NCBI RefSeq assembly: GCF_000317515.1
Contig: NC_019738.1
Span: 3,436,001 to 3,500,000 of the forward strand
DNA from: Allocoleopsis franciscana PCC 7113
GTDB lineage: Bacteria > Cyanobacteriota > Cyanobacteriia > Cyanobacteriales > Coleofasciculaceae
DNA length: 64,000 nucleotides
Direction of reading: 5' to 3'
Position numbers and translations under genes: made by a program. The notes beneath the pieces are model-generated. The model saw nothing but the letters and a program-made list of their open reading frames with translations, made no database searches and had not been told where the DNA came from. This document shows positions 36,836 to 60,888 of the stretch, piece after piece; the stretch's first letter is position 1, and each line of letters starts with the position of its first letter.

Positions 36836-36856
36836 GCCAAATCAAACCTCGTTGCG

Positions 36857-39016: not shown

Positions 39017-39031
39017 TAATGATAATCATTA
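39017..39031. promoter_or_regulatory. Fur/Zur-type box 2
   Basis: Perfect palindrome TAATGATAATCATTA, 16 bases upstream of the ATG at 39047, where it would block the promoter of the three-gene operon that follows. It resembles the box at 60889-60905 almost exactly. Confidence 0.78.
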
Positions 39032-39046
39032 CCAAAAACACCATCC

Positions 39047-39817
39047 ATGATTATTGCTGTCGCTGGTTTACCAGGAGCAGGGAAAACCACTTGGATTCGA
39101 CAACAGCTAGCCATTGCCAACCAACCCGTGCAGTATTTCAGTCCGGGTTCTGACCCAGTTCCCATTGACATGACCTGCATTGCTGCTGAATTTCCTGATG
39201 TCAAAGTCCTCAAGGAAGGTGAGGAACATCAATTGTCAGACTTGGCTGGGCTTGAGTCGATTACCTACATAGAACTCGGATTTCATGTAGATTTAGCGTC
39301 AGTTGAGCCAGTATTATCGGTGTTAGATGACCTCTCAATTCATCGCGTTGCCTTGATGCCACCAAACATACAGAATACGGGATGGCACGCTTGGGCGGAC
39401 GAGGTTGTACCGGGAGTTACAGTTGAACCCACGGAAGGTAAACCAGAGCTTTGGCGTGCGCCGATTAGCGGTCAAGTTTTAGACCCAGCAAGTCTGAATG
39501 TCTTTTGGTACGAGTTGACTCAAGGAGCCTATGGCAACGTTAACCGAGTGAAGGGAATTTTTGACCTAGCTGACGGACGAGCCTTTTACTTTGATTTTGT
39601 GGCTGGAATTCCTGATAGTACCTACACCGAGTTAACTGTTCCCCGTTGGTTAGAAGGGCGTCCTCAGCGTTTTAGTGGGATTGAAGTGGTCGGGATTGAG
39701 TTGGATAAAAAAGCAATTTCTCAAACCTTAAAAGATTGTTGTTTAGCCGACGCTGCCATTCATCACTACCAACAACAAATCCAAGAATCATTAGAAGAAG
39801 ACTTAGAGGAAGTATGA
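39047..39817 (+). CDS. Small CobW-like P-loop GTPase
   Basis: A 256-residue protein that begins with a P-loop, AVAGLPGAGKTTWIRQQ, and resembles COG0523/CobW metallochaperones in overall order. It lacks the hallmark GCxCC metal motif seen in the proteins encoded at 61656 and 63587. Two adjacent cysteines (DCC) near the C-terminus and an acidic tail are present. It is first in a Zur-boxed operon; its stop overlaps the next start (ATGA). Probable role in metal homeostasis, but the missing CxCC means zinc transfer by the usual route is doubtful. Confidence 0.68.
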   Translation: MIIAVAGLPGAGKTTWIRQQLAIANQPVQYFSPGSDPVPIDMTCIAAEFPDVKVLKEGEEHQLSDLAGLESITYIELGFHVDLASVEPVLSVLDDLSIHRVALMPPNIQNTGWHAWADEVVPGVTVEPTEGKPELWRAPISGQVLDPASLNVFWYELTQGAYGNVNRVKGIFDLADGRAFYFDFVAGIPDSTYTELTVPRWLEGRPQRFSGIEVVGIELDKKAISQTLKDCCLADAAIHHYQQQIQESLEEDLEEV

Positions 39818-40623
39818 AACTTGCTGTTATCTCATGCATTCACGGTAATTACGAAGCCTTAGATGCCGTTTTATTGGATATTGATCGCCAAAACGCTGAC
39901 AAAATTTTTTGTGTGGGTGACTTAGTAGGTTACGGTCCCTATCCTAATGCCGTAGTCGAACAAATTCGCTCCTTAGATATTCCCACTGTTCAAGGCTGCT
40001 GGGATGAAGATGTCGTAGAAGGACTCAATGCCTGCGAATGCTCCTATCCTTCAGTATTAGCCGAAAAACGGGGTCGTCTTGCCCATGAATGGACTAACGA
40101 GGAAATTTACCCGGAAACACGAGAATTTTTAGCTCAATTGCCTCATAGTTTAAAAGAAGGGAACTTGTGTTTTGTTCACGGTAGTCCTCATAGCAATCAC
40201 GAATACTTGTTACCCGAATTAGATGCTTTTCTCGCCATTGAACGAGTCATTTCTACAGGTGCTGATGTGCTGTTCTGCGGTCATACCCATGTGCCTTATG
40301 TCCGCGACTTAGATGCTAGTCAACTGCAAGTCAAAGTGAATGCAGCAGGCAAGCAGCAAGAACAAACTTTTACTGCCCCTCTCAAGCGCATTGTCAACGT
40401 GGGTTCGGTCGGAGAACCGCGTCATGGGCGGCCGAATGCCACCTATGTGATTTACGACACTGATACCGAACAGGTAACTCTGCGAGAGGTCGAGTACGAC
40501 TACCAAAAAACCTGTGCTGCGATCATTGATAAAGGCTTACCTGCTATTTTTGCGTGGCGATTAGCACGAGGACTAGAGTTTGCTGAAATGGCGGATGATC
40601 CAACTCATGTGTGTGAACGGTAA
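39814..40623 (+). CDS. Metallophosphoesterase-fold protein with altered metal site
   Basis: A 269-residue protein of the calcineurin-like phosphoesterase fold (YfcE/MJ0936-like), from the ATG at 39814 that overlaps the preceding stop. The usual SDIHGN reads SCIHGN, so the first metal-ligand Asp is Cys. The usual GNHD/E reads GCWDED, losing Asn and His. GDLVGYGP, HGSPHS and CGHTHVPY remain. This mixture suggests changed metal preference or lost catalysis. Position in a Zur-boxed operon between a CobW-like GTPase and a methyltransferase supports a metal-starvation role. A more degenerate paralogue is encoded at 54490-55239. Confidence 0.72.
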   Translation: MKLAVISCIHGNYEALDAVLLDIDRQNADKIFCVGDLVGYGPYPNAVVEQIRSLDIPTVQGCWDEDVVEGLNACECSYPSVLAEKRGRLAHEWTNEEIYPETREFLAQLPHSLKEGNLCFVHGSPHSNHEYLLPELDAFLAIERVISTGADVLFCGHTHVPYVRDLDASQLQVKVNAAGKQQEQTFTAPLKRIVNVGSVGEPRHGRPNATYVIYDTDTEQVTLREVEYDYQKTCAAIIDKGLPAIFAWRLARGLEFAEMADDPTHVCER

Positions 40624-42722: not shown

Positions 42723-44051
42723 CTATAGGTCTGTAATCAGCCTTGCCTTCCTTAGCAGAAATTGCAGGACTGTTTCTTCTCTGGAAATAATATCGGCTCT
42801 CCCCTCCATCCCTAATTGAATCGGACACTGACGAGTACCATAACCTAAAGAGAGGCTTTCTGGCTGAATCGTGACCTCATAAAATGAGGGCGTACCACTG
42901 ACATTAGACCTTACAGTTGCAGTCGTACCGTCTCGTTGAAGTGGGATAGCATCTGGGGAAATCGTACTCACTACACCTTGGAGGGTGCCGTAATCGGGGT
43001 AAGGACAGGCGGATACTCGCAGTTGTACGTTTTGACCGCCTTTTACCTTGCTAATGTCTTGTGATGTCACTGTTGCCTTCACAACCAACTGGGTATTACT
43101 GGGAGCAATTTGGGCGATTTCTGTACCAGGTTGCACTGTCTGACTAGAATTTCGTAAGTTCAACTTGAGGATTGTGCCGTCAGTGGGTGCAGCAATGATG
43201 GTTTGCTTGAGGTCAATTTCCACTTGTTGGAGTTGGCGGATATCCCGTTCTAGCTGGTTCTGAAGTTCAATTTGCTGCTGAATCAGGGCAACCCGTTCTT
43301 TGTTTAATGTAGCGGTGGTGGCTTCTCCCGTCGCTTTTTCTTGGGCAATGCGCTCTGATGCGATCGCTACATTAGCAGCGCTAGGATTAAGAGAGGCTTG
43401 GACACCTTCGAGTCGAGCAAGAGCTGCTTTAACTGCTTGTTGTTTTTGCTGAAATTGAAGCTGAGACACTGCCCCAGACTCTACGAGCTGTTGATAGGCT
43501 TTTAGCTCAGCATTGGCTAACCCTAACGCTGCCTCCGCTTCTTTTACGTCTGTTTGTGTGGTAACTTGTCGGTCTTGATAATCGCGTTGGTTGCGGCTTA
43601 AATCGGCTTGAGCAGAGGCGATAACTCGTTGATTGCGGTTCGTTTCTGCGGTAATTTGGCGATCGAGGGCAGCAATTTGGGCGTTCATTTGAGTGAGTTG
43701 TCGCTGAAGCTGCTGGATATTGCCTTGCAACTGGCGTTTTTGGGTTTGCAGGCGGGAGTCGTCGAGGATAGCAATAATCTCTCCCTGCTTCACCACCTGA
43801 TTTTCTTTCACTTTTATTCGCTCCACCGTGCCTTCTTTCGCCGCTTGGACAATTCGCAATTCACCCAAGGGACGGACGGTGGCTGGGGCTTTTACCGTAA
43901 CGTTGTACTTAAATAGGGCAGCAAGGATAAATGCAACTCCAACCGTGCCAACCATAAATAAGCCACCGAGGGTTGTCCATCGGCTGATAGGAGGTAGAAA
44001 TTCATCGCTAGAAGCTTTGGGGAGAACAGCCTCGTTAGAATCGTTAAGCAT
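42723..44051 (-). CDS. HlyD-family membrane fusion protein for lanthipeptide export
   Basis: Periplasmic adaptor (about 442 aa from the ATG at 44051; a TTG extension reaches 44084). One N-terminal membrane segment (GGLFMVGTVGVAFILAALF), then half-lipoyl motifs (GTVERIKVKENQVVKQGEIIAILDD), a long coiled coil rich in Gln, and a beta-barrel end domain. It would connect the inner-membrane ABC exporter LanT (45450-47555) to an outer-membrane channel. It lies 121 bases downstream of the precursor gene on the same strand, so both are probably transcribed from the Zur-boxed promoter at 44459-44510. Confidence 0.85.
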   Translation of the reverse strand: MLNDSNEAVLPKASSDEFLPPISRWTTLGGLFMVGTVGVAFILAALFKYNVTVKAPATVRPLGELRIVQAAKEGTVERIKVKENQVVKQGEIIAILDDSRLQTQKRQLQGNIQQLQRQLTQMNAQIAALDRQITAETNRNQRVIASAQADLSRNQRDYQDRQVTTQTDVKEAEAALGLANAELKAYQQLVESGAVSQLQFQQKQQAVKAALARLEGVQASLNPSAANVAIASERIAQEKATGEATTATLNKERVALIQQQIELQNQLERDIRQLQQVEIDLKQTIIAAPTDGTILKLNLRNSSQTVQPGTEIAQIAPSNTQLVVKATVTSQDISKVKGGQNVQLRVSACPYPDYGTLQGVVSTISPDAIPLQRDGTTATVRSNVSGTPSFYEVTIQPESLSLGYGTRQCPIQLGMEGRADIISREETVLQFLLRKARLITDL

Positions 44052-44172: not shown

Positions 44173-44391
44173 TTAAGCAATGTCAGTCGCGATCGTGTCA
44201 GCAAAACAAGCAATCCGAGTGTGCAAGGGATTGCCACAGGGAGTACATCCCCCCGACACTGAGGAAAGATCTTCATCCGACAGTTCGATCAGTCCAACTG
44301 GATTTTCTGGCAACAGTGCCTTCTGTTCATCGCTCAAGCTGGCACGGTAGTCTTCATCTTTCCACGCACGGATAATATCGGCGTTAGACAT
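44173..44391 (-). CDS. lanA: Mersacidin-type class II lanthipeptide precursor
   Basis: A 72-residue precursor. The leader begins MSNADIIRAWKDEDYRASLS and includes ALLPENPVGLIELSDEDL, the signature of mersacidin/lichenicidin-family leaders. It ends VSGG, the double-glycine cleavage site. The 24-residue core starts CTPCGNPLHTR, has three Cys, four Thr, no Ser and one His, and ends TDIA. Thr dehydration and Cys addition would give methyllanthionine rings. The CxxC and His could also bind metal. A GGAGG site seven bases before the ATG fixes the start. Two Zur-type boxes lie 68-119 bases upstream. Confidence 0.82.
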   Translation of the reverse strand: MSNADIIRAWKDEDYRASLSDEQKALLPENPVGLIELSDEDLSSVSGGCTPCGNPLHTRIACFADTIATDIA

Positions 44392-44458
44392 ATACACCCT
44401 CCATTGGGTATGGAACTTAACTTGGCTTTTCGCCGTAAGTAAGCATAGCCGATTTACG

Positions 44459-44475
44459 AGAATGATTATCATTCT
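44459..44475. promoter_or_regulatory. Fur/Zur-type box 3a
   Basis: Perfect palindrome AGAATGATTATCATTCT (8-1-8), in the divergent promoter between the lanthipeptide precursor and the oxygenase gene. Confidence 0.78.
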
Positions 44476-44495
44476 AATGCATTATCTAAACCAAT

Positions 44496-44510
44496 GAGAA
44501 TGATTATCAA
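44496..44510. promoter_or_regulatory. Fur/Zur-type box 3b
   Basis: GAGAATGATTATCAA, sharing the GAATGATTATCA core with the box 21 bases before it. It is closer to the oxygenase gene, so each divergent promoter may have its own operator. Confidence 0.7.
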
Positions 44511-44582
44511 AACTGATGTTAGCCTCAATGGAGACATCATCATGGGTAAAATTCGATCGCACTATCACAGGCTCAAATCAGC

Positions 44583-45494
44583 ATGGAACCCGTTCATCAG
44601 TTCTTACATCAACTGAAACAAGACCAAAAACTCCGAGAAGAATTAGCCGAAACGCTTAGAGTAGAAAACGATTGGAACGTTGCCACTCATATAGCGGAAA
44701 AATATGGATACAAATTTACCAGCAAGAAACTCTGGGAAACTATTCAGGAACGCCAGCAAAAAGGCGAAACCTGGGAAGACGAACCCCAACCTGCGATCGG
44801 AGTAGAAAATGCTAGTATTCAGCTCGACAACTTTCTGACAGCAGAGGACAATCATCACCTCCTAGAATATGCCCTACAACATGAGTCAGATTTTGTCAGT
44901 AGCTTAACGGTTGACCTTGATGATACTTTGCACCTATCACCAAATCATCGTCGCTCTTTAATGTTGCCATCATGCTCCGATGTAGTTGAAGGGGTTATCC
45001 ATCGTATTCACCAAGTTCTCCCAGAGGTGAGGAATCAATTATTGCTGCCATCTTTTCCTATTTCCGGAATTGATGCCTCCCTAACGGCTCATAATGATGG
45101 ACATTTTTACAGATTGCACAAAGATAATAACTCTATCCGTCTGGCAACGAGAGAAATTACCTTTGTTTACTATTTTTGTAAAGAACCTAAACCCTTTACA
45201 GGTGGAGAGTTACGAATTTATTACAACCAGGTTAAGAAAAATTTATTTGCTTTTAAACTAATAGAACCTCGAAACAATAGTATTGTCTTCTTTCCGAGTC
45301 GCTACCTACATGAAATTTTACCCGTGCATTGTCCTTTTCAAAATTTTGCCGATAGTCGATTCACCATTAACGGTTGGATTGAACAACAGGTAGGTAGCAG
45401 TAGAGGCGCAAATTTCCGGGACTTAATGTTAACGTTGATGGTGATGATTTCAAGGAGTCAAAAAAACCAAATGCTCTCCAGCTTTGGAACCTAG
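44583..45494 (+). CDS. Nif11-domain/prolyl-4-hydroxylase-like 2OG-Fe(II) oxygenase fusion
   Basis: A 303-residue fusion. Residues 1-60 (FLHQLKQDQKLREELAE, then IAEKYGYKFTSKKLWE) match the Nif11 domain that serves as leader in many cyanobacterial RiPP precursors. The rest is a P4H-type 2OG-Fe(II) oxygenase: HFYRLHKDN gives the H-x-D pair, RYLHEILPV the second His, and SRFTINGW the 2-oxoglutarate Arg. It faces away from the precursor gene across two Zur boxes and overlaps the 3' end of lanT by 45 bases. Likely a tailoring hydroxylase for the lanthipeptide; the Nif11 part may bind the modification machinery. Confidence 0.75.
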   Translation: MEPVHQFLHQLKQDQKLREELAETLRVENDWNVATHIAEKYGYKFTSKKLWETIQERQQKGETWEDEPQPAIGVENASIQLDNFLTAEDNHHLLEYALQHESDFVSSLTVDLDDTLHLSPNHRRSLMLPSCSDVVEGVIHRIHQVLPEVRNQLLLPSFPISGIDASLTAHNDGHFYRLHKDNNSIRLATREITFVYYFCKEPKPFTGGELRIYYNQVKKNLFAFKLIEPRNNSIVFFPSRYLHEILPVHCPFQNFADSRFTINGWIEQQVGSSRGANFRDLMLTLMVMISRSQKNQMLSSFGT

Positions 45495-47555
45495 AACTTC
45501 TGGACTTCCTTGAAGTTTTACCTGTCCTTCTTCCAAGAAGACAATCCAGTCGGCACGGTTGATAACTCTGGGGCGATGACTAATCAGAATTGTGGTTTTT
45601 CCTTGACGGTGGGAGAGGAGTCGATCAAGGACTTCTGTTTCACTCACTGGATCGAGACTTGCCGTAGATTCATCTAAAATTAAGATAGATGGGTCAGTGA
45701 CAATACCTAATGCGATCGCTAATCGTTGCCGTTGTCCTCCTGAAAGATTAGCGCCGAATTCTCCTAAAATAGTTTGATATTTGTTGGGAAGTTTACTAAT
45801 AAATTCATCTGCCTGAGCAATCTGACAGGCTTTAACAATTTCCTCAAAGCCAATCTGAGGATTTCCCAGAGTAAGATTATCAATAATTGAGCGACTCCAA
45901 AAGTGAGCTTCTTGGGGAATTAAAATAATCTGCTTTCTAATGCAATCGAGCGAGAGGTCTTGTAAATTGTAAGCATCAATGCGAATATTACCAGACTGGG
46001 GCAGATATAACCCTGCAATTAGTTTAGCTAGGGTACTTTTCCCACAGCCAGATTTACCAATTAAGGCAATCACTTTACCCCCAGGAAGGGTAAGAGAAAA
46101 GTCTTGGAGTAACTCCACTCTCCCCTTGTGATGAAAGTTGAGATGAGTGCAGGTAATCGTGGCATTACTGGGAATTTTAACCCTTGGCTTGGGTGTGTTA
46201 TCCTGAATTTCAGGTGTAGAATCAATCACATCCATCAAGCGCTGAATGGCAGTTTGAGTGAAGGCGAGTTGATTGACAAAACTTAGAATTGTTGTAATTA
46301 AAATCAGGCAATTTCGGTTCATTGCATTAAACGCTAACAATTGCCCGATGCTTAGGGTTTGGGCAAAGACTAAACTACTTCCGAACCATAGCAGAATGGT
46401 TTCACCACTGAGAGAGACAAACCCAGAAAATACATTATTGACAATAGCCATCTGTAGGGTATTGAAGGTGAGGGTTGCTTGTCGTCCATAGCGAATCTGA
46501 AATTCTTCAAAAAATTGAGGGGCTGCATTTTTAGTTTTCAGAGTGATTGCCCCTTTGAAGGTTTCAATTAATAAACTTTGGTTTTCTGCGGTTAAGGCTA
46601 ATAGATTGCGGATTTTTTGCTGAATCTTGGGGATTAAGATGACAGTGGATAGAGTCATGATGACAGTAATAGCCAAAGCAACAAGCAAGAGTTGAGGGCT
46701 ATAAACAAGCATGAACCCCAGGGAAACCAAGGCAATAAAAATCTGACTGGGCAGAATAATCCCGGCTTGAGAAATAAGTTGGTTAATGGCTTGAATGTCG
46801 CGCAAGCGGCTGATAATTTCACCACTCCGATGAGATTCGTAGTAAGGCAGGGGTAAACTCAGAATAGTACGACCAAATTCTAGAACTAAATTTAATTCCA
46901 GTCGTTGAGCAAAATGAGCCACTAAGTTGGATTGAATAAATTTAAGGCTACTGCTAATGAGATGCATCACCAAGACAGCAATGATGACACTATTGAGCAG
47001 GTAAGTATCTCCTCGAATCAGTACATCATCAGTGAGAACTTGCAGTAAGAAGGGAGAGGTAAGCGAGAGCAATCCTAAAAAAAAGTTCAGTAATAACGCT
47101 TCAGCTAGAAGAGTCCGATAATTCCAGAATTGTTGGAAGAAGCGATTAAAACTACCAACTTTGTTTCGATCATCGGGTTGGCTTTTAAAGTCAGAACGTG
47201 GTTCTAGTAAGAGCATCACGCTATTAGTCCAGCCAGACAGTAATTCTTGGCGAGATAAATAGCGCATCCCTACGGCTGGATCGGCTATGACATACTTGTT
47301 TCCCTTGCGCCCATACAACACAACCCAGTGATTCCCTTTCCAGTGGATAATTCCGGGTAATGGCACAACTTTTTGATCGATCAGTTCTAGGGGTGCTTTA
47401 ACACCTCGTGCATCGAATAAAAGCGCTTTTGCCCCTTGTCGGAGGTTGAGTAATGTAGTACCTAGTGGCCCTGTTCCTGCCACTTCCCGAACCCGATTGA
47501 TGGAAAAAAAACGCCCATAATATTTAGCGATCGCAAGCCTTACAAGCTGCACCAC
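45450..47555 (-). CDS. lanT: LanT-type peptidase/ABC exporter, frameshifted peptidase domain
   Basis: A 701-residue PCAT-family exporter. The ABC domain has Walker A IGKSGCGKST, signature LSGGQRQRLA and Walker B LILDEST, behind a six-helix membrane domain. The C39 peptidase domain keeps its His (IIHWKGNHWVVLYG) and Asp (IADPAVG), but the open frame starts at a GTG inside the domain, after the catalytic Cys. The missing start (MKYQVILQHNEEDCGAAC) lies in another frame just upstream (47524-47595), joined by a one-base insertion near 47539-47544. As read, it could export but not cleave the leader unless frameshifting restores the domain. Confidence 0.75.
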   Translation of the reverse strand: MVQLVRLAIAKYYGRFFSINRVREVAGTGPLGTTLLNLRQGAKALLFDARGVKAPLELIDQKVVPLPGIIHWKGNHWVVLYGRKGNKYVIADPAVGMRYLSRQELLSGWTNSVMLLLEPRSDFKSQPDDRNKVGSFNRFFQQFWNYRTLLAEALLLNFFLGLLSLTSPFLLQVLTDDVLIRGDTYLLNSVIIAVLVMHLISSSLKFIQSNLVAHFAQRLELNLVLEFGRTILSLPLPYYESHRSGEIISRLRDIQAINQLISQAGIILPSQIFIALVSLGFMLVYSPQLLLVALAITVIMTLSTVILIPKIQQKIRNLLALTAENQSLLIETFKGAITLKTKNAAPQFFEEFQIRYGRQATLTFNTLQMAIVNNVFSGFVSLSGETILLWFGSSLVFAQTLSIGQLLAFNAMNRNCLILITTILSFVNQLAFTQTAIQRLMDVIDSTPEIQDNTPKPRVKIPSNATITCTHLNFHHKGRVELLQDFSLTLPGGKVIALIGKSGCGKSTLAKLIAGLYLPQSGNIRIDAYNLQDLSLDCIRKQIILIPQEAHFWSRSIIDNLTLGNPQIGFEEIVKACQIAQADEFISKLPNKYQTILGEFGANLSGGQRQRLAIALGIVTDPSILILDESTASLDPVSETEVLDRLLSHRQGKTTILISHRPRVINRADWIVFLEEGQVKLQGSPEVLGSKAGEHLVFLTP

Positions 47556-47626
47556 AATCTTCTTCGTTGTGCTGTAAAATAACTTGGTATTTCATCCCCA
47601 TTTTGGATTTGGTTCCATCAGTCTAA
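47433..47626 (-). repeat. Duplicated lanM-lanT junction, copy A
   Basis: 194 bp matching 48726-48919 without gaps, with 7 mismatches (about 96% identity). It covers the last three codons of lanM, the short spacer and the first 50 or so codons of lanT. The match ends exactly where the attC-like element begins. Confidence 0.85.
47524..47595 (-). pseudogene. Out-of-frame N-terminus of LanT peptidase domain
   Basis: From the ATG at 47595 this frame reads MKYQVILQHNEEDCGAAC with the catalytic Cys (codon 47554-47556), then KACDR and a stop at 47524-47526. Removing one base after the second Cys codon would give CRLAIAKYYG and join the downstream 701-residue frame. The same shift is present in the duplicate at 48726-48888, which argues against a simple sequencing error. 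Confidence 0.7.
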
Positions 47627-47706
47627 TGTTCCCAATCAGCGGCGGCAGATAGCCTTGAACTCAGCACCAATAGCTCGCTCTCGTCCGCTCATTGGGGTTG
47701 TTGTGC
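47621..47706 (-). other. 86-bp attC-like structured element, copy 2
   Basis: Aligns without gaps to 41445-41530. Inner arms AATCAGCGG and CCGCTCATT pair, with the T-A pair next to GCGG swapped to A-T relative to copy 1. Its outer ends (GTCTAAT and GTTGTGC) are weaker matches to attC core sites. It lies just downstream of the PIN-domain toxin gene, and its left edge coincides with the end of the lanM-lanT junction repeat. Confidence 0.5.
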
Positions 47707-47710
47707 TGCG

Positions 47711-48175
47711 CTATGGATGGTCATTTGGGTTTTCAACCAATAGCCCTTCGTTAACAGCAGCTAAATTCAATTCATCGTCTGCGGATACAAGAATAATGGA
47801 TGGCAAACCATTAGCGATACAAAGCTCATTCACTGCATATCCTGCTGCTAACTGAACAGCATCATACCCTCGTAATCCGTGTGTCTCAGCCAGTGCCATC
47901 CCAGAATTAATAAGTCCTTCTATAATTTCAACAACTTGGTAGTCTGTTTGTAAATCATTCCGCAATTGATTACAGACTAACTTTGCATCTGCGGCACTGA
48001 TACTGCCATTACGTGTCCTTCGTGTAATTGCTGCAACAATTTCAACCCCTGTAATTGCTGCAACAAAAAATTCATTGTCTAGCGTCGGATCGAATAACCC
48101 CAAAACCCAAGCTGAACCAGTTTCACTGATGTATCTCTTAACCAGCGCACTACTATCTAGAAAGTAGATTGCCAT
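47711..48175 (-). CDS. PIN-domain (VapC-like) toxin
   Basis: A 154-residue PIN-domain ribonuclease. Acidic active-site residues are in YFLDSSALVKRY, TGVEIVAAI, GYDAVQLA and VSADDELNLAA, the standard order for VapC-type toxins. The start touches the stop of the antitoxin gene (adjacent bases 48175/48176), indicating translational coupling. The pair interrupts the lanM-lanT operon and is bracketed by duplicated junction sequence. Confidence 0.85.
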   Translation of the reverse strand: MAIYFLDSSALVKRYISETGSAWVLGLFDPTLDNEFFVAAITGVEIVAAITRRTRNGSISAADAKLVCNQLRNDLQTDYQVVEIIEGLINSGMALAETHGLRGYDAVQLAAGYAVNELCIANGLPSIILVSADDELNLAAVNEGLLVENPNDHP

Positions 48176-48439
48176 CTATCGGCGTTCCCCGATAATTGTT
48201 TGAGAAACAGACTCCCCCTGAACCTGAATAAGATGCTGAGGTGTTCTGTGTTCAAAAGTTGGATTCTTAATCTGCCGAACCAATCCAGACTCTACTAATG
48301 CTCGGTTGAATGCCACTCGCCTAGCAGATGCTTCTCTGTTTTTCAAGTATGCTTGGAGTACTTGACTAAGTTGCTGTAGCTCAGATGGCTCCAGCGCCTG
48401 CAACTGGTTGAGGATTTGGTTCAGAATTGCTTGCGGCAT
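48176..48439 (-). CDS. Antitoxin partner of the PIN toxin
   Basis: An 87-residue helical protein (LNQILNQLQALEPSELQQLSQVLQAYL at the N-terminus) directly preceding and abutting the PIN toxin gene. No DNA-binding fold is obvious, but such short helical antitoxins are common before cyanobacterial PIN toxins. The C-terminal part (RTPQHLIQVQGESV) probably occupies the toxin active site. Confidence 0.75.
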   Translation of the reverse strand: MPQAILNQILNQLQALEPSELQQLSQVLQAYLKNREASARRVAFNRALVESGLVRQIKNPTFEHRTPQHLIQVQGESVSQTIIGERR

Positions 48440-48725
48440 CGGTTGTAACCTGCGGGCTGGCTTTGCTATCTATTCTACAAAACCTTAAGCAAGCATCTCA
48501 CAGATCGCCTGACAGAACCGCTCTTACCAAAAACTTCAGCAGCAAAACTTATTATTATGCCGCAATGTGCAGTAAGCGTCCCCATACAGGTCAGGCTATC
48601 CCGCACATCGCCGTTTAGCATCCTTTGTTTACGGAAACTTCAAACTCGTCATCGTACTCTCACACATTACTCGTTGGGAACAATATTCTGTAGAGCGGCT
48701 AGTCCTGCTATGAGAGTGTATTTTT

Positions 48726-48919
48726 CCCTTGTCGGAGGTTGAGTAATGTAGTACCCAGTGGCTCTGTTCCTGCCACTTCCCGAACCCGATTGATGGAAAA
48801 AAAACGCCCATAATATTTAGCGATCGCAAGCCTTACAAGCCGCGCCACAATCTTCTGCGTTGTGCTGTAAAATAACTTGGTATTTCATCTCCATTTTGGA
48901 TTTTGTTCCATCAGTCTAA
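48726..48919 (-). pseudogene. Duplicated lanM-lanT junction, copy B, with 5' lanT fragment
   Basis: The 194-bp partner of 47433-47626. It contains the real 3' end of lanM and a second start of lanT (ATG at 48888: MKYQVILQHNAEDCGAAC), with the same +1 shift and stop. It breaks off after about 50 codons. It is the relic of the original or a duplicated lanT start left behind when the toxin-antitoxin cassette entered. Confidence 0.8.
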
Positions 48920-51900
48920 AATGGTGTTGGGAGGGGAAAGTACCAAGATGGAAGGAATTTTGTCAGGTGCAGCAAGACGCAGCAATCCGTAACCGATTCC
49001 TGCCAAACCAGTCATTAACCCTAGTGTTTCAACTCCTAAGGGTACTCCGCAACACCAACCCTGCTGGCGAAGGCTTTCTAGGATACTGGCGGCAAGGCGA
49101 GTAACTGGAGAATGCCAAGTTGAATAATTAGGAGTTTGACTCACTTGTAAGAGAAATTCCAGATTACCCAGCATCCCGTTACACAACGAATGATTTCCAC
49201 AAAAGCCATGAGCAAGCGTTGTTTCTAAGGCAGTATTAATCTCCAGGGGAATTTGTGCATCTTCCAAGTGTTTGAGGGAATGTAACCGTGCTAATCCAAT
49301 TCCAGGGGCACCATAACTCCAGGCAACGCTAAATGTATCCCGCTCCCCAGGCTGATTTAACCAATTTTTAGTATCAGGAGAAAATAAACTGCGCTCATCA
49401 GTTATTGCACCAACTGCTGAAGAGCGAAAACGTTCCTCTCCCGTTAATGTAGCTAATTCCAACAGCGCCCAAGCCATCCCTGCGGCACCGTGAGAAAATC
49501 CAGTTAAGGGGTTAGTTCCGTCTCCAGGCATCCAAGCTCTACCCTGTTCCATTGCTTGATTTTGGGATATTATGCGATTGCCTTTGGCACCACCTAAAAG
49601 GTGATCGCCACATTGAATCGCAACCGCTTTAATCCGCTCATCCGGAATACTCTGATATAGAGCTACCAACGCCCCAATACAACCCGCAGCCCCGCCGATG
49701 ATATCCAGTTGATTATCATTCTCAATCAATCCAGGCAGGATATCCACCCACTCCAAGGCTTGATTCAACAATTGGGGTTGACGCCACAAACTCCCCAAAT
49801 GCGTCAGAGTGTAAATCAACCCTCCCCACCCATCAAAGGCACCAATGGAGGTAATAATAGAGCGATCGTACTCAACCTGACGTTGTAATGTAAAGAGAGC
49901 CTGTTGAGCAAGTTTTGTATAGCGTGATTCTTGAGTAATTTCTCCCAAATAGGCAAAAAATAAGGCAATTCCAGGGATACCATCAAACAAACTCCATCCT
50001 AAAGGAGCAACAGCCCAATGGTGTTTACCCATAAGTCTGATGCCAATCCAACTCGCCATTTCTCCATCGCGTAACGCCAATGATTCCAAGCATTCAGCAA
50101 TCGTACAAGCGGTTTGTAAAAGTTCTGAAGTTAAGGTTTCTTGCTCAGGAATTGTCGGAATTTCAGGCAAAGAAACACTTACCCATTCTACTGCCTCAGC
50201 GTCCATTCCTAGAGTATAGAGAGAACTCTCGATTAACCTCACTTGCCACGCTAAATCTTCTGGGTTCAACTGTTGTATACGATGCCGCACCTGTTCCATC
50301 CCTGATGTCTCAAAAAAATCAGGAATTTGCTCTTGTTCATTCAGCCTAAGTTCACGGGAATTGGGGTAAGTGGTGAATTTAGGAATGTCTCCCTGCCATA
50401 ATGACTCTTGTTCTGCTTTGATTAGCTGTGTCAGATAAGAGCGATTTTCCACATCCACCCACAGGCGATCGAATAAGCGATCGCGATTTAAAGCATCCCG
50501 TAAAACATCGGGATGAAAACTCTCTCGCAATAATAAAGCATAGGTTCGACTTTCACGCAAAACTACACGCACTTCATCCGAGGCAAAACGAGTTAAAAGT
50601 CCATCCTGTGCTAATAGTTCATCCCGGTGTTTCATCAAAAATTGATATATCGTTGTAAATCCGGTGATGATTGCCTCTTTGTAGTCTAAAACATTCACTT
50701 GTGCCTCATGCAATCGCGGTCGATTTTGGCTTTCTGGTAGGGGAATTTGCTGCCGAATCATTCGCATTTCATCAGTTCCTTTCCCCGCCAAAGTAAGAAT
50801 CCGCTCCGGCATTATTTGACCATCAGTTGCACCAATTCCACTCACTTCAATCCCCGCAGATTCCCCCTGTCTCCATAACCGCTGAGGCAGTAAGCCAACG
50901 CGAAACACGGACTGAGCCATTCGCTGATTTGCTATAAAAATTGCTTCGGGGGAGTTGGGTTCAACTTTACGCGGCTGGAATAGGGTTTCCAAATCAATGG
51001 GCATGGGATGTTCCCCCGATGCAATTAAGTTTTCTAAGTGAAAGTCTGTCGCATCAAGTGCATACAATAACGCTAAGTATCCTCCCATTCGTTGATAAAA
51101 ACGCTCGATTTGCGACTGATGGCTGCAACTTGATGATTCAATAAATTCTACCCAACCATAAGTTCCACAGTTAATAATCTTTAAAGGTTTTAATGGCAGA
51201 AAATCAGCCTTTTGATTAATCCAATAGAGAAGGTCTTGAAAATGGACATCTACCGCTAAAGGTTTTGGCTTATAGACGACCTTAAAGCCTGACTGAAATT
51301 TAGCAATAACTACAGAACGCCCACCATTATGGTTATCGCTGATACTGCAATTAATTTGTTCCAATACCCCCGGTTCTTTGTCAGGACTGAAAGCCGTGCA
51401 AATTGCTGCCCAATCTGTACAAAGCCGTTGAATAAATTCAAGCTTTACCTCAATGTGTTGCTGAATGCAGAGTGCAAGTTGACGAGCAAGAACCGGATAG
51501 TCTTGTAACAGTTGTATTGCTACGTCTTGCTCTTGGAGACGTTGTAAAAAGCTTAAGTATCGCTCTTGGGCAGTTTCACCAGATAATAGCCCTTGCAGAC
51601 GTGCTACGTTGAGTTCTAGCACCATCGTCGGAGTCAACATCCAGAGTAAATGCTGGGGTAAATCTGCCAATAATATAGATAAAATGCTGTTGGAATCGAA
51701 AGGCAGTTTGGATGATAAAAGTAAGGGAGTAGGGAATAAGGCATTTCTTTCCCCACTCCCCATTCCCCATTCCCCATTCCCCACATTGTTTCTAGATTTT
51801 TGGTTAACTTCAATGGCTTGAAGTCCTGCCTGTAAGCGGTTAATCCCTTGATGAATGAGTGGGGCGATCGCACACAGAAAGTTATCGGACGTAATAACAG

Positions 51901-52240
51901 ATTTTAAATTAGAACAATCAGCAGTAGAAAAAGCCTGCTCAATTTCTCTGAGCCATTCTGGAATAGTGGGAAAACGTTCAGCAAGCGATCGCATTGATTC
52001 CCCTAAAAGAAAGCGAAACTCTTGTTCCGTTATCCCCTCTTGAGTGAGCTTGGCATCAAAAAAAACAGGTTTTGTCAAGGGTTTTTGCGATCGCCAGCGT
52101 TGAATTCGCCGTTCAGCCAATTCTGCGTTATACCCATTTTCGGCAATCTGACGCCCCCTTACCCCCAAAGATGCCACCCTTTCGGTCAATTTCAACGCCT
52201 GATACCAGTTCCCAGCTTGAAAACAGTCTTGACTCATCAT
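48911..52240 (-). CDS. lanM: Class II lanthipeptide synthetase LanM with degenerate zinc site
   Basis: About 1109 residues from the ATG at 52240 (a TTG extension reaches 52312 inside the operator). The N-terminal dehydratase domain is intact: DNHNGGRSV, VVYKPK, DATDFHLENLIASGEHP and IDLETL. The C-terminal LanC-like cyclase keeps GFSHGAAG, but the first zinc-ligand Cys of the usual WCxG is Ser (AWSYG, codon 49316-49318), and the usual CHG or CCG is CNG (codon 49178-49180). Only one of three ligands remains; a nearby CGNHSLC could offer substitutes. A CCCCATT repeat tract is translated in a linker. The gene is under a Zur-type box. Confidence 0.88.
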   Translation of the reverse strand: MMSQDCFQAGNWYQALKLTERVASLGVRGRQIAENGYNAELAERRIQRWRSQKPLTKPVFFDAKLTQEGITEQEFRFLLGESMRSLAERFPTIPEWLREIEQAFSTADCSNLKSVITSDNFLCAIAPLIHQGINRLQAGLQAIEVNQKSRNNVGNGEWGMGSGERNALFPTPLLLSSKLPFDSNSILSILLADLPQHLLWMLTPTMVLELNVARLQGLLSGETAQERYLSFLQRLQEQDVAIQLLQDYPVLARQLALCIQQHIEVKLEFIQRLCTDWAAICTAFSPDKEPGVLEQINCSISDNHNGGRSVVIAKFQSGFKVVYKPKPLAVDVHFQDLLYWINQKADFLPLKPLKIINCGTYGWVEFIESSSCSHQSQIERFYQRMGGYLALLYALDATDFHLENLIASGEHPMPIDLETLFQPRKVEPNSPEAIFIANQRMAQSVFRVGLLPQRLWRQGESAGIEVSGIGATDGQIMPERILTLAGKGTDEMRMIRQQIPLPESQNRPRLHEAQVNVLDYKEAIITGFTTIYQFLMKHRDELLAQDGLLTRFASDEVRVVLRESRTYALLLRESFHPDVLRDALNRDRLFDRLWVDVENRSYLTQLIKAEQESLWQGDIPKFTTYPNSRELRLNEQEQIPDFFETSGMEQVRHRIQQLNPEDLAWQVRLIESSLYTLGMDAEAVEWVSVSLPEIPTIPEQETLTSELLQTACTIAECLESLALRDGEMASWIGIRLMGKHHWAVAPLGWSLFDGIPGIALFFAYLGEITQESRYTKLAQQALFTLQRQVEYDRSIITSIGAFDGWGGLIYTLTHLGSLWRQPQLLNQALEWVDILPGLIENDNQLDIIGGAAGCIGALVALYQSIPDERIKAVAIQCGDHLLGGAKGNRIISQNQAMEQGRAWMPGDGTNPLTGFSHGAAGMAWALLELATLTGEERFRSSAVGAITDERSLFSPDTKNWLNQPGERDTFSVAWSYGAPGIGLARLHSLKHLEDAQIPLEINTALETTLAHGFCGNHSLCNGMLGNLEFLLQVSQTPNYSTWHSPVTRLAASILESLRQQGWCCGVPLGVETLGLMTGLAGIGYGLLRLAAPDKIPSILVLSPPNTILD
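51749..51784. repeat. CCCCATT heptanucleotide repeat inside lanM
   Basis: A tract of about five CCCCATT/CCCCACT units, typical of cyanobacterial short tandemly repeated repetitive sequences. It lies in frame in lanM and encodes the Gly/Trp-rich VGNGEWGMGSGE linker between dehydratase segments. Confidence 0.75.
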
Positions 52241-52310
52241 TTTTTGCCCCTGCACCCAACTTACTTCGATCTCTTCAGGATGCTGCCCCAAGTTCTCTAC
52301 TTTACACGAC

Positions 52311-52338
52311 AATAATGATTATGATAATTATTCTCATT
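52311..52338. promoter_or_regulatory. Fur/Zur-type boxes 4, overlapping
   Basis: AATAATGATTATGATAATTATTCTCATT contains overlapping ATGATTAT and GATAATTATTCTC half-sites. It lies between the divergent lanM and porin (52495) genes and overlaps the possible TTG start of lanM. Confidence 0.68.
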
Positions 52339-52494: not shown

Positions 52495-54450
52495 ATGCCA
52501 AAAATCTTGTGGGATTCCTTTGTGGGTGCTGCTTTCGGAGTGTCGATTTGTGCGCTATCTGCCAGCGCCGACATCACTACCCCAGAAGTGCTGATGGGGG
52601 AAGAAGGGAGTGTAGAAAGTACAGAATTCCCTGTGTCTGTCTCTCCCTTAGCGGAATCAAAGAGTCTCGATGTGCAGGAACCGTCGGTTTCCGATTCCTT
52701 AGCTGTTTCTTCCCCAGAGTTAGAAATCACCAATCCTGAAGTAGAAACCCCGACTGCACCAGCACCATCAGAAGTCTTCTCACCGCAAGTAACACCGGAC
52801 AACGCGCCTTCGGTTGACTCTCTCCATCTCTCTGAGGAAGAGTCGTCTAATGGGGCAATGGAACAAGTCACCTCTGTGTCTCAGCTATCTGATGTTCAAC
52901 CCACAGATTGGGCGTATGAGGCATTGCGAAGCTTAGTTGAACGCTATGGCTGTATTGCAGGGTATCCCGACGGTACCTTTCGAGGCAACCGGGCAATGAC
53001 GCGCTACGAATTTGCCGCCGGATTGAATGCCTGTATGAATCAAATCGAGCGTTTAATTGCGGCAAACACCGCTAACTTTGTAACCAAAGAAGACTTAGCT
53101 ACCCTGCAACGCTTAGTTGACGAATTTCGCAGCGAATTAGGAGCATTGCAAGGTCGGGTGGATACGTTAGAAGCGCGAACTACCCAACTGGAAACTCAGC
53201 AGTTTTCCACCACCACAAAGCTATCCGGTGAAGCAATTTTTGCCATTACTGATGTGTTGAGTGGAGATTCTGACCCATTTAATGTTGGCATCACCCGCAA
53301 CAATACGGTATTTGCTAATCGGGTACGCCTAAACTTACTCACCAGCTTTACGGGTAACGATGTCTTACACACCCGTTTGGAATCGGGGAATTTCCCCCAT
53401 CCCCAGCGTCCGCGTGCATTTCGCTACGGTGCTGACCCCATCCTGAGTGATTTCGGGATACTGGGAAGCACGCCAGAAGGAGGACAGACGTTCAATATCG
53501 GGGCAACTGAACCGCCGGGAAGTGTGGCATTAGGTCTTCTCAGCTACAAATTCTCAGTGGGGCAAAATCTCCGCGTTGCTATTTTCGGCAACTTGGGTGA
53601 ACATCCAGATTATCTTCCCACTACCTTCAGCACTTGGGCAGATGACGATGGAGGAACGGGTTCCATCTCTACCTTTGCTCAGTACAGCCCGATTTACCGC
53701 ATTGGTGTGGGTGCAGGTGCAGGGTTAAATTACAGCTTTAGTCCTAGTGTCAGCCTCAGTCTGGGGTATCTAGCGGCGGAAGCGAACATTCCAGAGAGTT
53801 TGAGTGCAGCTAATCTTCGTGGGGGCGGTTTGTTTAGCGGTAGATATGGAGCGCTAGCGCAGTTAACTTTTCAACCTAATGACAATATAGCGCTGGGTCT
53901 AACCTACAATCACAGCTACTCGGCGGGACTACCGCTTTTTTTCAATGATGTGGGTACAACGTCAGCTAATGTCAATATTACACTCACGTCCCCTTCGTTG
54001 CGATACTCGGCGGATTCCTTTGGTGTCGCTGGGATGTGGCGAGTGACGCCAGGGTTTGCGGTTAATGGTTGGTTTGTCTATACCAACGTCAAGGGTAAAC
54101 CCCCGGTAGGGGACGAAGGCGGGAGTGCGGATGTGTTCAGTTATGCGGTTTCCCTGGCATTCCCCGATTTAGGTAAACGCGGAAATCTCGGTGGAATTGT
54201 GGTGGGTGTTCCTCCTTATGCCACCCGAATTGGAATTGCGCCTTCTCTCCAAGACCTTTTTGGGACAAATGATGCTGTTAAACTCATTCCTAATCGAGCA
54301 ATTCCATTGCACATCGAAGCCTTTTACAAATATCAACTGACGGATAATATCTCGATTACACCAGGCGTGATTTGGCTAACAGCACCTAATCAAACAACGA
54401 CGAATTCTGATGTGGTCATTGGCACACTTCGGACTACATTCACGTTTTAG
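52495..54450 (+). CDS. SLH-domain outer-membrane porin, second paralogue
   Basis: A 651-residue porin with signal peptide (VGAAFGVSICALSASA), an acidic Pro/Ser-rich linker, one SLH domain (AYEALRSLVERYGCIAGYPDGTFRG region), a coiled segment and an OprB-like barrel ending TTFTF. It matches the gene at 36983 in order and in the SLH segment, but has no His-rich insertion. It shares a Zur-boxed divergent promoter with lanM. It may admit scarce metals or a metal-peptide complex; that link is inferred. Confidence 0.82.
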   Translation: MPKILWDSFVGAAFGVSICALSASADITTPEVLMGEEGSVESTEFPVSVSPLAESKSLDVQEPSVSDSLAVSSPELEITNPEVETPTAPAPSEVFSPQVTPDNAPSVDSLHLSEEESSNGAMEQVTSVSQLSDVQPTDWAYEALRSLVERYGCIAGYPDGTFRGNRAMTRYEFAAGLNACMNQIERLIAANTANFVTKEDLATLQRLVDEFRSELGALQGRVDTLEARTTQLETQQFSTTTKLSGEAIFAITDVLSGDSDPFNVGITRNNTVFANRVRLNLLTSFTGNDVLHTRLESGNFPHPQRPRAFRYGADPILSDFGILGSTPEGGQTFNIGATEPPGSVALGLLSYKFSVGQNLRVAIFGNLGEHPDYLPTTFSTWADDDGGTGSISTFAQYSPIYRIGVGAGAGLNYSFSPSVSLSLGYLAAEANIPESLSAANLRGGGLFSGRYGALAQLTFQPNDNIALGLTYNHSYSAGLPLFFNDVGTTSANVNITLTSPSLRYSADSFGVAGMWRVTPGFAVNGWFVYTNVKGKPPVGDEGGSADVFSYAVSLAFPDLGKRGNLGGIVVGVPPYATRIGIAPSLQDLFGTNDAVKLIPNRAIPLHIEAFYKYQLTDNISITPGVIWLTAPNQTTTNSDVVIGTLRTTFTF

Positions 54451-54489: not shown

Positions 54490-55239
54490 ATGACAAACTG
54501 GGCAATTTTAAGTGGAATTGAAGGGAATATAGCTGCCTACGAGGCGGTGTTGGCAGATATCAAGCGGCAACGACACCCGGTAGAAGAGATGTATATCCTG
54601 GGGGATGTGATTGCGGCAACTCCTGCAAGTATAAAAGTAATCCAACGAATTCAATCCCCTCGTGCCAATGAACCTGCGCCCCAGGTATGTCAGGGTTGGT
54701 GGGAAGAACAGTTGCTTATCTTGCATGGCTTGGGACGAACGGGAGAACCGACTGAACTGATTGAGCGATATGGCATAGACAGGGTAAAAACCTTATGGGA
54801 TGCGATTCCGCGAGAAATGGTGGAATGGGTGCGATCGCTTGACTTCGGTTTCTTTGAACTCGATTGCTTACTGATTCACGGCAGCAGTGTCAGTGTGAGT
54901 GATGAATTAACTCCAGATACATCGCCAATTCAAATGCTCGATCGCCTCCTGAGAATGGATGCCAACACCTTATTTTGTGGTCGTTCTGGTTTGACATTTC
55001 AGTACAAAATTGAGCAAGGTACTGTGACATCCAGCGTCACAACCCTAGATCAATCCTCCTCGCCACAAGCCACTTTGGTAAAACCTCGGCAGATTGTTGG
55101 TGTTGGCAATGTTGGACATATCCCTGGTCAAGCCACGTACACTCTCTACAACCCCAATTCCAACCAAATTGAATTCAAAACTGTTCGCTATGGCTTTGGA
55201 AGAGGATTTCAAACTGTAGACAGGCGCATTTCTCAATGA
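54490..55239 (+). CDS. Degenerate metallophosphoesterase-like protein
   Basis: A 249-residue protein related to the product of 39814-40623. The SDIHGN metal motif reads SGIEGN, GNHD reads GWWEEQ, and GHTH reads GRSG, so four ligand positions are lost; only GDV and IHGS remain. It is very unlikely to be an active phosphoesterase. It is probably transcribed with the porin 40 bases upstream under the Zur-boxed promoter. A 5' fragment of a close copy lies at 41371-41496. Function is unknown, possibly structural or regulatory. Confidence 0.68.
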   Translation: MTNWAILSGIEGNIAAYEAVLADIKRQRHPVEEMYILGDVIAATPASIKVIQRIQSPRANEPAPQVCQGWWEEQLLILHGLGRTGEPTELIERYGIDRVKTLWDAIPREMVEWVRSLDFGFFELDCLLIHGSSVSVSDELTPDTSPIQMLDRLLRMDANTLFCGRSGLTFQYKIEQGTVTSSVTTLDQSSSPQATLVKPRQIVGVGNVGHIPGQATYTLYNPNSNQIEFKTVRYGFGRGFQTVDRRISQ

Positions 55240-55274: not shown

Positions 55275-55697
55275 CTAAGATATTTGATGGGTGCAGGGTT
55301 CACAGAGTCCGAAAAATTCCAGGGTGTGATAGTAGATTTTGAACGGAACGGAGGGCTGTAAGTGAGTTTCTAATTCCTGTACCGGGCAGTGGTCGAGTGG
55401 AAACGACTGGCCACATTGCAAGCAGGTGAGGTAGTGCTGATCGGGTGCAACAGGACTGTAGAATGCTTCGCCGTTTGCACTCATCCGACTTTTGATTAAT
55501 CCATGCAACTTCAAGGTTTCTAATGCCCGATACACCGTTGCCAGCCCGATCGCCTGTCGTTCACGCAGCAGGCTATACAACTCCTGGGCTGAGCGGGCAT
55601 CCGCTTGCTGGTGCAGCACATCGAGTACCGCTTGCTGATTGCGAGTCAGGCGGGGTGAGTGGGTTGCACTTTCTTGAGATGAAGAGTCACTTTTCAC
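55275..55697 (-). CDS. zur: Fur-family zinc uptake regulator Zur
   Basis: A 140-residue Fur-family repressor. The winged helix includes LTRNQQAVLDVLHQ and GLATVYRALETLKLHGLI. The dimerisation domain has DQHYLTCLQCGQ and LCEPCTHQ, the two CxxC pairs of the structural zinc site. Assignment to Zur rather than Fur rests on the adjacent znuA-znuC-znuB genes. It starts with GTG at 55697 and is divergent from hemB across a Zur-type box, so it is probably autoregulated. Its stop converges on the phosphoesterase-like gene. Confidence 0.87.
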   Translation of the reverse strand: MKSDSSSQESATHSPRLTRNQQAVLDVLHQQADARSAQELYSLLRERQAIGLATVYRALETLKLHGLIKSRMSANGEAFYSPVAPDQHYLTCLQCGQSFPLDHCPVQELETHLQPSVPFKIYYHTLEFFGLCEPCTHQIS

Positions 55698-55716: not shown

Positions 55717-56814
<1,098 letters not shown>

Positions 56815-56817
56815 GGG

Positions 56818-56855
56818 AGTGGGGAATAGGGAATAGGGAATGGGGAATGGGGTGA
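56818..56855. repeat. GGGAATR heptanucleotide repeat between hemB and znuA
   Basis: About five GGGAATA/GGGGAAT units, the same repeat class as in lanM (opposite strand). It separates hemB from znuA and may affect read-through. Confidence 0.7.
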
Positions 56856-56904
56856 AGAGTTTCTTTACTCCTTTACGCATCGATCTAAAAACTGCTGTAA
56901 ATAC

Positions 56905-58026
56905 GTGAATATTCTTCAGATGATTCATTCAAAAACAAGTTTACAACCATCCAGCAATTTCGTTCGTCGGTTTTCCGTAGCGGTTGTATCGGCGATCGCC
57001 GTTAGTTTAGGCAGTTGCCAAACGAATGCACCGACAACAAACACAGATTCACAAGCACAATCGACGACTGCCGCAACAACGGATGAGTTGCAAGTGGTGA
57101 CAACGTTTTTACCGATCACTCAGTTTACAAAAGCCGTGGCGGGCGATCGCGCCGAAGTGACACAGCTACTGCCAACCAATGTCGGCCCCCATGATTTTCA
57201 GGCAAGACCAGAGGATGCCCAAAAGCTGGCTAAAGCCGATGTGCTGGTGCAGAACGGGCTGGAGATGGAGGAATTTCTGGAAGATCTGGTCAAGAATGCG
57301 GGCAATGCTAATCTGAAAGTGATTGATTCCAGTCAGGGCGTGAAAACGATCGCCAATGAAGCGACCGAGGGGCATGACCATAATCATGGCGCAAATGAAA
57401 AAGCAGAAGCTGGACATGGACACGAGCATGGAAAATACAATCCTCATGTCTGGCTCGATCCCAAACGTGCCATTGAACAAGTTGAAAACATTCGAGATGG
57501 ACTGATTGCGGCTGACCCTGGTGGAAAGGAAACCTACACGGCAAACGCAGCAGCTTATATCCAACAACTGCGAGATTTAGATGCTGAAATCACAAAAAAA
57601 CTGCAACCCTATGCGGGTAAAACCTTTGTTGCCTTCCATGACTTTGCCCCGTACTTTGCTCAAAGCTATAACTTGAAAGCCAATTTTCTGGTAGATGTGC
57701 CGGAAGAAAATCCATCGCCGAATGATGTCAAACGGGTGACGGATGAAGTGAAGGAATCTAATCTCAAAGCGATTCTGACGGAACCCCAGGCTGGAGAAAA
57801 TGCGTTTGCAGGGTTGGCAAAGGATCTAAATGTCAAGATCAGCACTTTTAATCCGATTGAAACTGGTGGTTCCGAAGCACTGGAACCGAACTATTACATC
57901 ACAACCATGCGTCAGAACGTGCAGAGTTTGGTCACTGCTTTTGGTGGTTCAACCCAGTCTGTGTTGCCGATCTGGATGCCTCAGCCTGTTGCAGTAGTGC
58001 CACAGCGAGTTGGGTTTAGGTTTTAG
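56905..58026 (+). CDS. znuA: ZnuA zinc-binding lipoprotein
   Basis: Periplasmic solute-binding component of the zinc ABC transporter (about 370 aa). The lipobox is VSLGSC, so it is probably membrane-anchored. Metal ligands: His in VGPHDFQ, His in YNPHVWLDP, His in FVAFHDFAPYF and an acidic residue near the C-terminus. A charged His loop (EGHDHNHGANE, GHGHEHG) between the first two is the hallmark of high-affinity ZnuA. Start is GTG at 56905 or ATG at 56920. Followed closely by znuC. Confidence 0.92.
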   Translation: MNILQMIHSKTSLQPSSNFVRRFSVAVVSAIAVSLGSCQTNAPTTNTDSQAQSTTAATTDELQVVTTFLPITQFTKAVAGDRAEVTQLLPTNVGPHDFQARPEDAQKLAKADVLVQNGLEMEEFLEDLVKNAGNANLKVIDSSQGVKTIANEATEGHDHNHGANEKAEAGHGHEHGKYNPHVWLDPKRAIEQVENIRDGLIAADPGGKETYTANAAAYIQQLRDLDAEITKKLQPYAGKTFVAFHDFAPYFAQSYNLKANFLVDVPEENPSPNDVKRVTDEVKESNLKAILTEPQAGENAFAGLAKDLNVKISTFNPIETGGSEALEPNYYITTMRQNVQSLVTAFGGSTQSVLPIWMPQPVAVVPQRVGFRF

Positions 58027-58035
58027 GAGGTTAGA

Positions 58036-58800: not shown

Positions 58801-58818
58801 CCCTTACCCCCCACTCCC

Positions 58819-60828: not shown

Positions 60829-60888
60829 TGCAAATGCAGGAACAGGAAGAATTGACAGGATGGCAGGTCAATCCTAGAATCACACAAT

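Follow-up and report, generated by a model that had tools for sequence, protein, structure and literature searches.

The 64,000-nucleotide stretch of Allocoleopsis franciscana PCC 7113 analysed here (the window) contains, in its right-hand part, a zinc island housing the class II lanthipeptide genes lanA, lanM, lanT and hlyD. We propose that these genes specify a Zur-repressed lanthipeptide that would be exported at zinc scarcity and would most likely bind zinc, a reading to which we give about an even chance. It is carried by the gene content, the Zur-type boxes, the single clade of boxed synthetases, the loss of zinc ligands from the synthetase LanM and the His/Cys-bearing cores, and Zur binding, induction, peptide chemistry, zinc binding and uptake are predicted from these. 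A preliminary description of the same DNA had placed a precursor, LanM, LanT and HlyD amid zinc genes, and the profile search bore this out (Table 1). The precursor combines a GG leader, matched by TIGR03898 and hence of the mersacidin/lichenicidin type, with a Ser/Thr/Cys core near lanM, as in class II lanthipeptides. A single LanC-like gene was found in the whole genome (7.97 Mb, 9 contigs).

Zur-type boxes at the lan promoters

The window was scored against the 7-1-7 cyanobacterial site TGATAATNATTATCA, which we take to be the 15-bp Zur consensus, with a cut-off of at least 12 of 14 positions; this assumption is backed by an independent matrix and by mentions in papers of a 15-bp, 7-1-7 site. 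Sites reaching the cut-off start at 36855, 36879, 39020, 44457, 44495, 49710 (inside lanM), 52322, 55722 and 60893, where a Markov model of the window predicts 0.1 per 64 kb. Fur/Zur-type boxes had been described at both lan promoters and likened to those at the zur, hemB and znu promoters. Both statements hold: matches of 12/14 and 13/14 precede lanA and one of 13/14 precedes lanM, and a weight matrix built solely from the five non-lan sites (36855, 36879, 39020, 55722 and 60893) puts the two main lan boxes (44495 and 52322) in the top six positions of the window, one tied for second to fourth and the other tied for fifth to sixth. The strict pattern TGAKAATNATTMTCA occurs three times in the genome, always in the zinc island (the lanA/oxygenase promoter, the lanM/porin promoter and a znuA-like gene), and a control pattern has 0 occurrences. 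Promoter-like hexamers overlap the boxes, and the Zur sites at all3515 likewise overlap with promoter elements (PMC10957091).

Control by FurA was considered and set aside, the Anabaena FurA consensus AAATAAATTCTCAATAAAT (PMC4005646) being different from the boxes. The motif itself, its genome-wide rarity, its presence at znu, zur, hemB and COG0523 genes and the way it is kept throughout one LanM clade lend good support to the predicted control of the lan genes by a Zur-type rather than a FurA-type regulator, as the preliminary description had supposed. The same type of box stands at znuA-like, zur/hemB, COG0523, lan and porin genes, so that the peptide genes share their predicted control with zinc uptake; znuABC, COG0523 genes, hemB2 and TonB receptors are known Zur targets in Anabaena (PMC6103462). 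Judged by its gene position, the Fur-family regulator of the island is probably Zur.

Table 1. Features of the window around the lanthipeptide genes. E, expectation value; box scores are matches out of 14 positions; ORF, open reading frame.
Feature	Coordinates	Strand	Evidence and remarks
FAD monooxygenase-like protein	35609-36835	minus	Zur boxes at 36855 and 36879
Zur-type box	39020-39034		13/14; before COG0523/CobW_C gene
COG0523/CobW_C gene	39047-39817		zinc island; Zur-type box in front
hlyD, membrane-fusion protein	42723-44051	minus	TIGR01843 E 4.6e-48; downstream of lanA
lanA, precursor	44173-44391	minus	TIGR03898 E 1.6e-20; leader MSNADIIRAWKDEDYRASLSDEQKALLPENPVGLIELSDEDLSSVSGG, core CTPCGNPLHTRIACFADTIATDIA; GGAGG before ATG
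Zur-type box CGAGAATGATTATCA	44457-44471		12/14; upstream of lanA
Zur-type box TGAGAATGATTATCA	44495-44509		13/14; 118 nt before lanA start; common to divergent oxygenase
2-oxoglutarate (2OG)-Fe(II) oxygenase	44583-45494	plus	PF13640 E 1.5e-17; divergent from lanA
lanT, C39 peptidase-ABC transporter	45450-47555	minus	C39, ABC membrane and ATPase domains; frame lost at catalytic Cys
194-bp repeat, copy 1	47433-47626	minus	lanT 5' end; 96% identical to copy 2
PIN-like toxin	47711-48175	minus	PF01850 E 0.00098, under cut-off
Probable antitoxin	48176-48439	minus	adjoins PIN-like ORF; no Pfam match
194-bp repeat, copy 2	48726-48919	minus	next to lanM; same frameshift as copy 1
lanM, synthetase	48911-52237	minus	DUF4135 + LANC_like; PF13575 E 4.8e-138, PF05147 E 8.6e-71, TIGR03897 E 2.9e-301
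Zur-type box TGATAATTATTCTCA	52322-52336		13/14; 99 nt before lanM ATG; common to divergent porin
SomB/OprB-type porin	52495-54450	plus	NF033921 E 6e-157; divergent from lanM
Fur-family regulator, probable zur	55275-55697	minus	PF01475 E 2e-16; genome has five FUR proteins
Zur-type box	55722-55736		12/14; between zur and hemB
hemB, znuA, znuC, znuB	55744-59655	plus	hemB: NF006762 E 3e-159; znu genes named by sequence
Short znuA-like ORF	60828-61286		ends early; perfect 14/14 Zur box at 60893
COG0523 GTPase	61656-62759		zinc island; long His-rich repeat; likely a zinc chaperone

Relatives of the lanthipeptide locus

The search for LanM relatives covered 388 genomes at the level of the class and 389 at that of the order, followed by an alignment search of named genomes. 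The loci (numbered below with the prefix L) are of two kinds. In the first, lanM and lanA are boxed, with 12–14 of 14 positions matching as a rule and 11 in two members, and the commonest order is a porin gene pointing away from a box, lanM, lanT, a second box, lanA and hlyD. In the second, lanA is found close to lanM, with no upstream match above 11/14. The density of boxes (at least 12/14) is 17 per 100 kb in boxed loci against no more than 2.4 in unboxed ones. Box-bearing LanMs form one clade, the Zur clade, which takes up 30 of the 98 rows of the tree (Shimodaira–Hasegawa approximate likelihood-ratio test, SH-aLRT, 98); the LanMs outside it are unboxed. On this tree the box trait requires 1 change, compared with a mean of 25.8 after shuffling (0 of 500 shuffles as low), and a careful 40-row tree gives the clade a bootstrap/SH-aLRT support of 100/99. 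The agreement between tree and boxes is not circular, because the label was taken from the boxes and the tree from the LanM sequence alone.

The boxed loci of other cyanobacterial genomes, in which the preliminary description had suggested looking for the same gene order, belong to a single clade, with members in Microcoleus, Okeania, Coleofasciculus, Iningainema, Spirulina, Anabaena, Calothrix, Nostoc, Nodularia, Goleter and Gomphosphaeria. The locus of Fischerella thermalis PCC 7521 (L126) is laid out and boxed in the same way, its reading frame being too short for the tree. The Zur-boxed lanthipeptide system spans many cyanobacterial families, as a single clade. It is very improbable that the boxes serve only the neighbouring porin and oxygenase genes, with the lan genes as bystanders. 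Each lan box of the window does sit in a divergent promoter, as such an explanation would have it, but lanA of the relatives is preceded by a separate box, as part of the order lanM-lanT-box-lanA-hlyD on a single strand (70–130 nt upstream in nearly all Zur-clade members read), and lanM is boxed even where the porin is missing (L107, L129, L130, L132, L140 and L157).

Core peptides

The window core, CTPCGNPLHTRIAC..., has the spacing Cys-x2-Cys-x4-His-x4-Cys, which we take to be that of a zinc knuckle, a resemblance only. Three sets of cores can be told apart in the Zur clade: CTTCGNPLHTPIIKC-like (including CTTC...HT...C variants), CTCGSTQCSMPWHHY-like and HTKTCKHCC-like. Histidine is present in 27/27 of these cores, as compared with 11/39 in the sister groups (Fisher 6e-10, kinship uncorrected), and 26 of the 27 have at least three cysteines. 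This His/Cys layout is kept over distant families, whereas the sister-group cores vary widely. Together with the co-regulated uptake genes, the conserved cores favour zinc binding as the predicted function.

The main rival to zinc binding is an antimicrobial lantibiotic made at zinc scarcity, where Zur would time the attack and the target would be the envelopes of neighbours, not zinc. We hold this to be possible but doubtful. The leader belongs to the mersacidin/lichenicidin family, export by LanT/HlyD is usual for bacteriocins, and the N-terminal CT of many cores recalls ring A of mersacidin; on the other side, conserved immunity genes (LanFEG, LanI) are not among the gene families common to the loci, and a layout kept across distant families, set beside variable sister-group cores, speaks against an antimicrobial. 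The Lipid II-binding segment of mersacidin-group antibiotics, CTLTxEC, was absent from the cores compared by reading, a further point against this rival. Export genes in the absence of immunity genes would also suit a zinc-starvation signal or a surface peptide, which would carry information to neighbours or form a coat on the cell and have no role for metal, as would the RTX exoprotein gene that adjoins lanM in six loci. We consider such a peptide unlikely, as the gene families common to the loci include neither a receptor kinase nor a regulator, and the His/Cys cores would be left unexplained.

Loss of zinc ligands in LanM

In the LanM of the window (residues numbered from an upstream TTG at 52312), the Cys-Cys-His zinc site of the class II cyclase is incomplete: Ser1001 stands for Cys (WSYGAPG), Cys1046 is kept and Asn1047 stands for His (SLCNG). 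LicM2 has WCHG and SLCHG at the aligned places and CylM has LCHG, the second position being His912 of CylM, whose zinc ligands are Cys875, Cys911 and His912 (PMC4550811). Throughout the subclade of the window, the motifs WC.GAPG and SLCHG are replaced by WS.GAPG and SLCNG or similar, and the rest of the Zur clade has the complete site. Among 197 near-invariant columns (conserved to at least 95% in LanMs outside the clade), the residues C1001 and H1047 occur in 0/15 ligand-less LanMs, 15/15 other Zur-clade LanMs and 62/62 other LanMs; Y778 and P1099 vary along with the lost ligands, and most of the other columns are kept. The predicted cyclase domain has a predicted local distance difference test score (pLDDT) of 91.7 and matches LicM2 with Z 42.5 and a root mean square deviation of 2.5 over 384 residues. 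By sequence and predicted structure, the ligand-less cyclase domain is conserved, and decay of LanM is disfavoured. In the careful tree, 14 ligand-less members group together with 100/100 support, and a single ligand-less clade that also takes in L189 is not rejected (approximately unbiased test, p-AU 0.48). A LanM outside the Zur clade, from Dictyobacter kobayashii (L179), has WSYGAPG and SLYHG, another loss of zinc ligands.

LctM mutants lacking zinc ligands dehydrate their substrate and cyclise it poorly (Paul et al. 2007, as relayed in PMC10301443 and PMC11356792), and PMC11356792 reports their linear product as inactive, which also argues against an antimicrobial role. A precedent for metal-free cyclisation is the class III enzyme ThurKC, in which Ser occupies the first ligand position (PMC10604976). 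The production of zinc-free paralogues when zinc is limiting is already known (PMC5912738, PMC2770081), and a lanthionine synthetase would be a new instance of it. The LanMs with and without zinc ligands form a natural series for asking how lanthionine cyclases can dispense with metal.

The broken lanT of the window

A PIN-type toxin-antitoxin pair lies between lanM and lanT, bracketed by a 194-bp direct repeat (47433-48919). The lanT frame shifts at the C39 cysteine, with MKYQVILQHNEEDCGAAC in one frame and LAIAKYYGRFFSI... in another, CGAAC being translated in a different frame just upstream of the main lanT frame. Nearly all relatives have the intact C39 motif in one frame. Further C39 proteins are encoded in the genome and could process the leader in trans, none of them evidently dedicated to it. 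Because the lanT frame is broken at the C39 Cys, leader removal and perhaps export may have been lost in this strain, or may have been taken over by another C39 protein.

Decay of lanT is likely, given the frameshift in both repeat copies and the toxin-antitoxin insert. That the whole system is decaying in this strain, with the ligand loss of LanM as part of the process, is of low probability: the loss is common to 14 LanMs in one clade (100/100) whose other cyclase columns are conserved, 12 of the 15 ligand-less loci have the C39 motif intact within a full-length LanT frame, and the boxes, lanA and lanM of the window are intact. The part of this explanation that concerns LanM is disfavoured on these comparisons.

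Oxygenase and accessory genes

The gene divergent from lanA, listed in the preliminary description as a tailoring oxygenase, encodes a 2OG-Fe(II) oxygenase. The relatives of this protein are cyanobacterial 2OG enzymes of wide occurrence, none of them in other Zur-type clusters, and we rejected it as a core part or marker of the system; it is a local addition. About 60 N-terminal residues of the oxygenase (44583-44810) resemble Nif11 leaders (TIGR03798 E 0.0011, below the cut-off; tblastn matches). The protein joins a leader-like domain to an oxygenase, and the likeness is to the Nif11 leaders of other cyanobacterial lanthipeptides.

The zinc island has two SomB/OprB porins. Genes like znuA, znuB or those of COG0523 adjoin several of the clusters compared, and relatives of the FAD monooxygenase-like protein lie inside the lan cluster of L062, L106 and L191. 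TfuA and YcaO genes of the type that thioamidates a glycine of McrA adjoin or lie inside the cluster in nine loci, near-copies counted (L062, 14342-16942; L065, 2364-4909; L104; L106; L112; L114; L191-L193), and only within the subclade of LanMs without zinc ligands. TfuA has its own 14/14 box in L065 and follows the porin in L062. The genome of the window has two copies of YcaO, both distant from the lan genes. In the group with HTKTCKHCC cores, a 574-aa RTX/Ig-like exoprotein replaces the porin beside lanM (L107, 7457-9181; L129; L130; L132; L140; L157). Two phosphoesterase-like proteins are encoded in the zinc island (39736-40623 and 54490-55239), with relatives adjoining L062, L157 and L192.

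Proposed pathway and significance

We propose a zinc-responsive pathway in which zinc-loaded Zur would occupy the boxes at lanM/porin and lanA. When zinc is gone, Zur would leave, and the precursor, synthetase, exporter and adaptor would be produced alongside the zinc uptake genes. LanM would dehydrate the core, LanT/HlyD would cut and export the peptide, and the exported peptide would bind zinc outside the cell through its His and three Cys or their modified forms. The zinc-loaded peptide would then help to feed the porin/Znu route. In the lineage of the window, a cyclase without two of its zinc ligands may either cyclise without metal, like class III enzymes, or leave thiols free, and by either course the pathway could run in zinc-starved cells.

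Several points weigh against zinc binding by an exported peptide. Zur control, expression and metal binding are all predictions from sequence. A conserved, dedicated uptake receptor is not evident: the porin occurs at 22 of the compared loci and a TonB receptor-like gene at 3. Half of the Zur clade retains the zinc cyclase. Thioether-locked cysteines are poor zinc ligands, and the conserved His could have another role. The main lanT frame of the window lacks the C39 Cys, and the strain may not process the peptide.

The preliminary observation is confirmed and stands stronger than first stated, and the His in all cores of the clade and the lost zinc ligands of LanM are new. Its interpretation is supported in part: Zur-type control stood, zinc binding is the likeliest of the functions offered for the peptide (metallophore, signal or weapon), and the ligand loss of LanM, the broken lanT and the oxygenase as a local addition had been missed. 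We tentatively extend the proposal, with rather low confidence, to a ribosomal zincophore family, that is, a Zur-controlled lanthipeptide-type metallophore with a zinc-free LanM in one lineage and TfuA-YcaO thioamidation in some members. The finding links a family of ribosomally synthesised and post-translationally modified peptides to zinc homeostasis over much of the cyanobacteria, and it points to zinc chelation as a condition expected to bring about expression of a silent cluster. A peptide that binds zinc would be a ribosomal zincophore, and one that kills would mean zinc-timed warfare.

Comparison with known systems

The preliminary description knew of no Zur-regulated lanthipeptide, and in the open-licence literature searched we likewise found neither a Zur-controlled lanthipeptide nor a lanthipeptide zincophore. 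Zur-controlled metallophores such as coelibactin and opine-type zincophores are small molecules under zinc control (references in PMC10957091). The system described here would resemble them in that control, but its product would be ribosomal, whereas theirs arise by nonribosomal peptide synthetase or opine chemistry. The Zur regulon of Anabaena PCC 7120, which comprises znuABC, hemB2, folE2, thrS2, COG0523 genes, TonB receptors and zepA, shares the 7-1-7 site type and the same partner genes, and unlike here its reports include no peptide biosynthesis genes (PMC6103462, PMC10957091).

Like CylM, LicM2 and LctM, the system has a DUF4135 dehydratase with a LanC-like cyclase, a GG leader, LanT and HlyD; it differs in the Zur-type sites, the replacement of two of three zinc ligands in the subclade of the window and the His in all cores. 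Class III ThurKC (PMC10604976) also has a cyclase without the Cys-Cys-His site and Ser at the first ligand position, but here the dehydratase is of the LanM type rather than a kinase and lyase, and Cys and Asn occupy the two remaining positions in place of Phe and Asp. The synthetase of the Pseudanabaena 'cyanotin' (PMC11356792) and clostridial CA_C0082 (PMC10301443) are, like the present enzyme, LanM homologues without the zinc site. In those systems either Cys is absent from the core or the dehydratase residues have gone as well, whereas here there are about three Cys per core, most other conserved columns are kept and the ligand loss goes together with Zur boxes.

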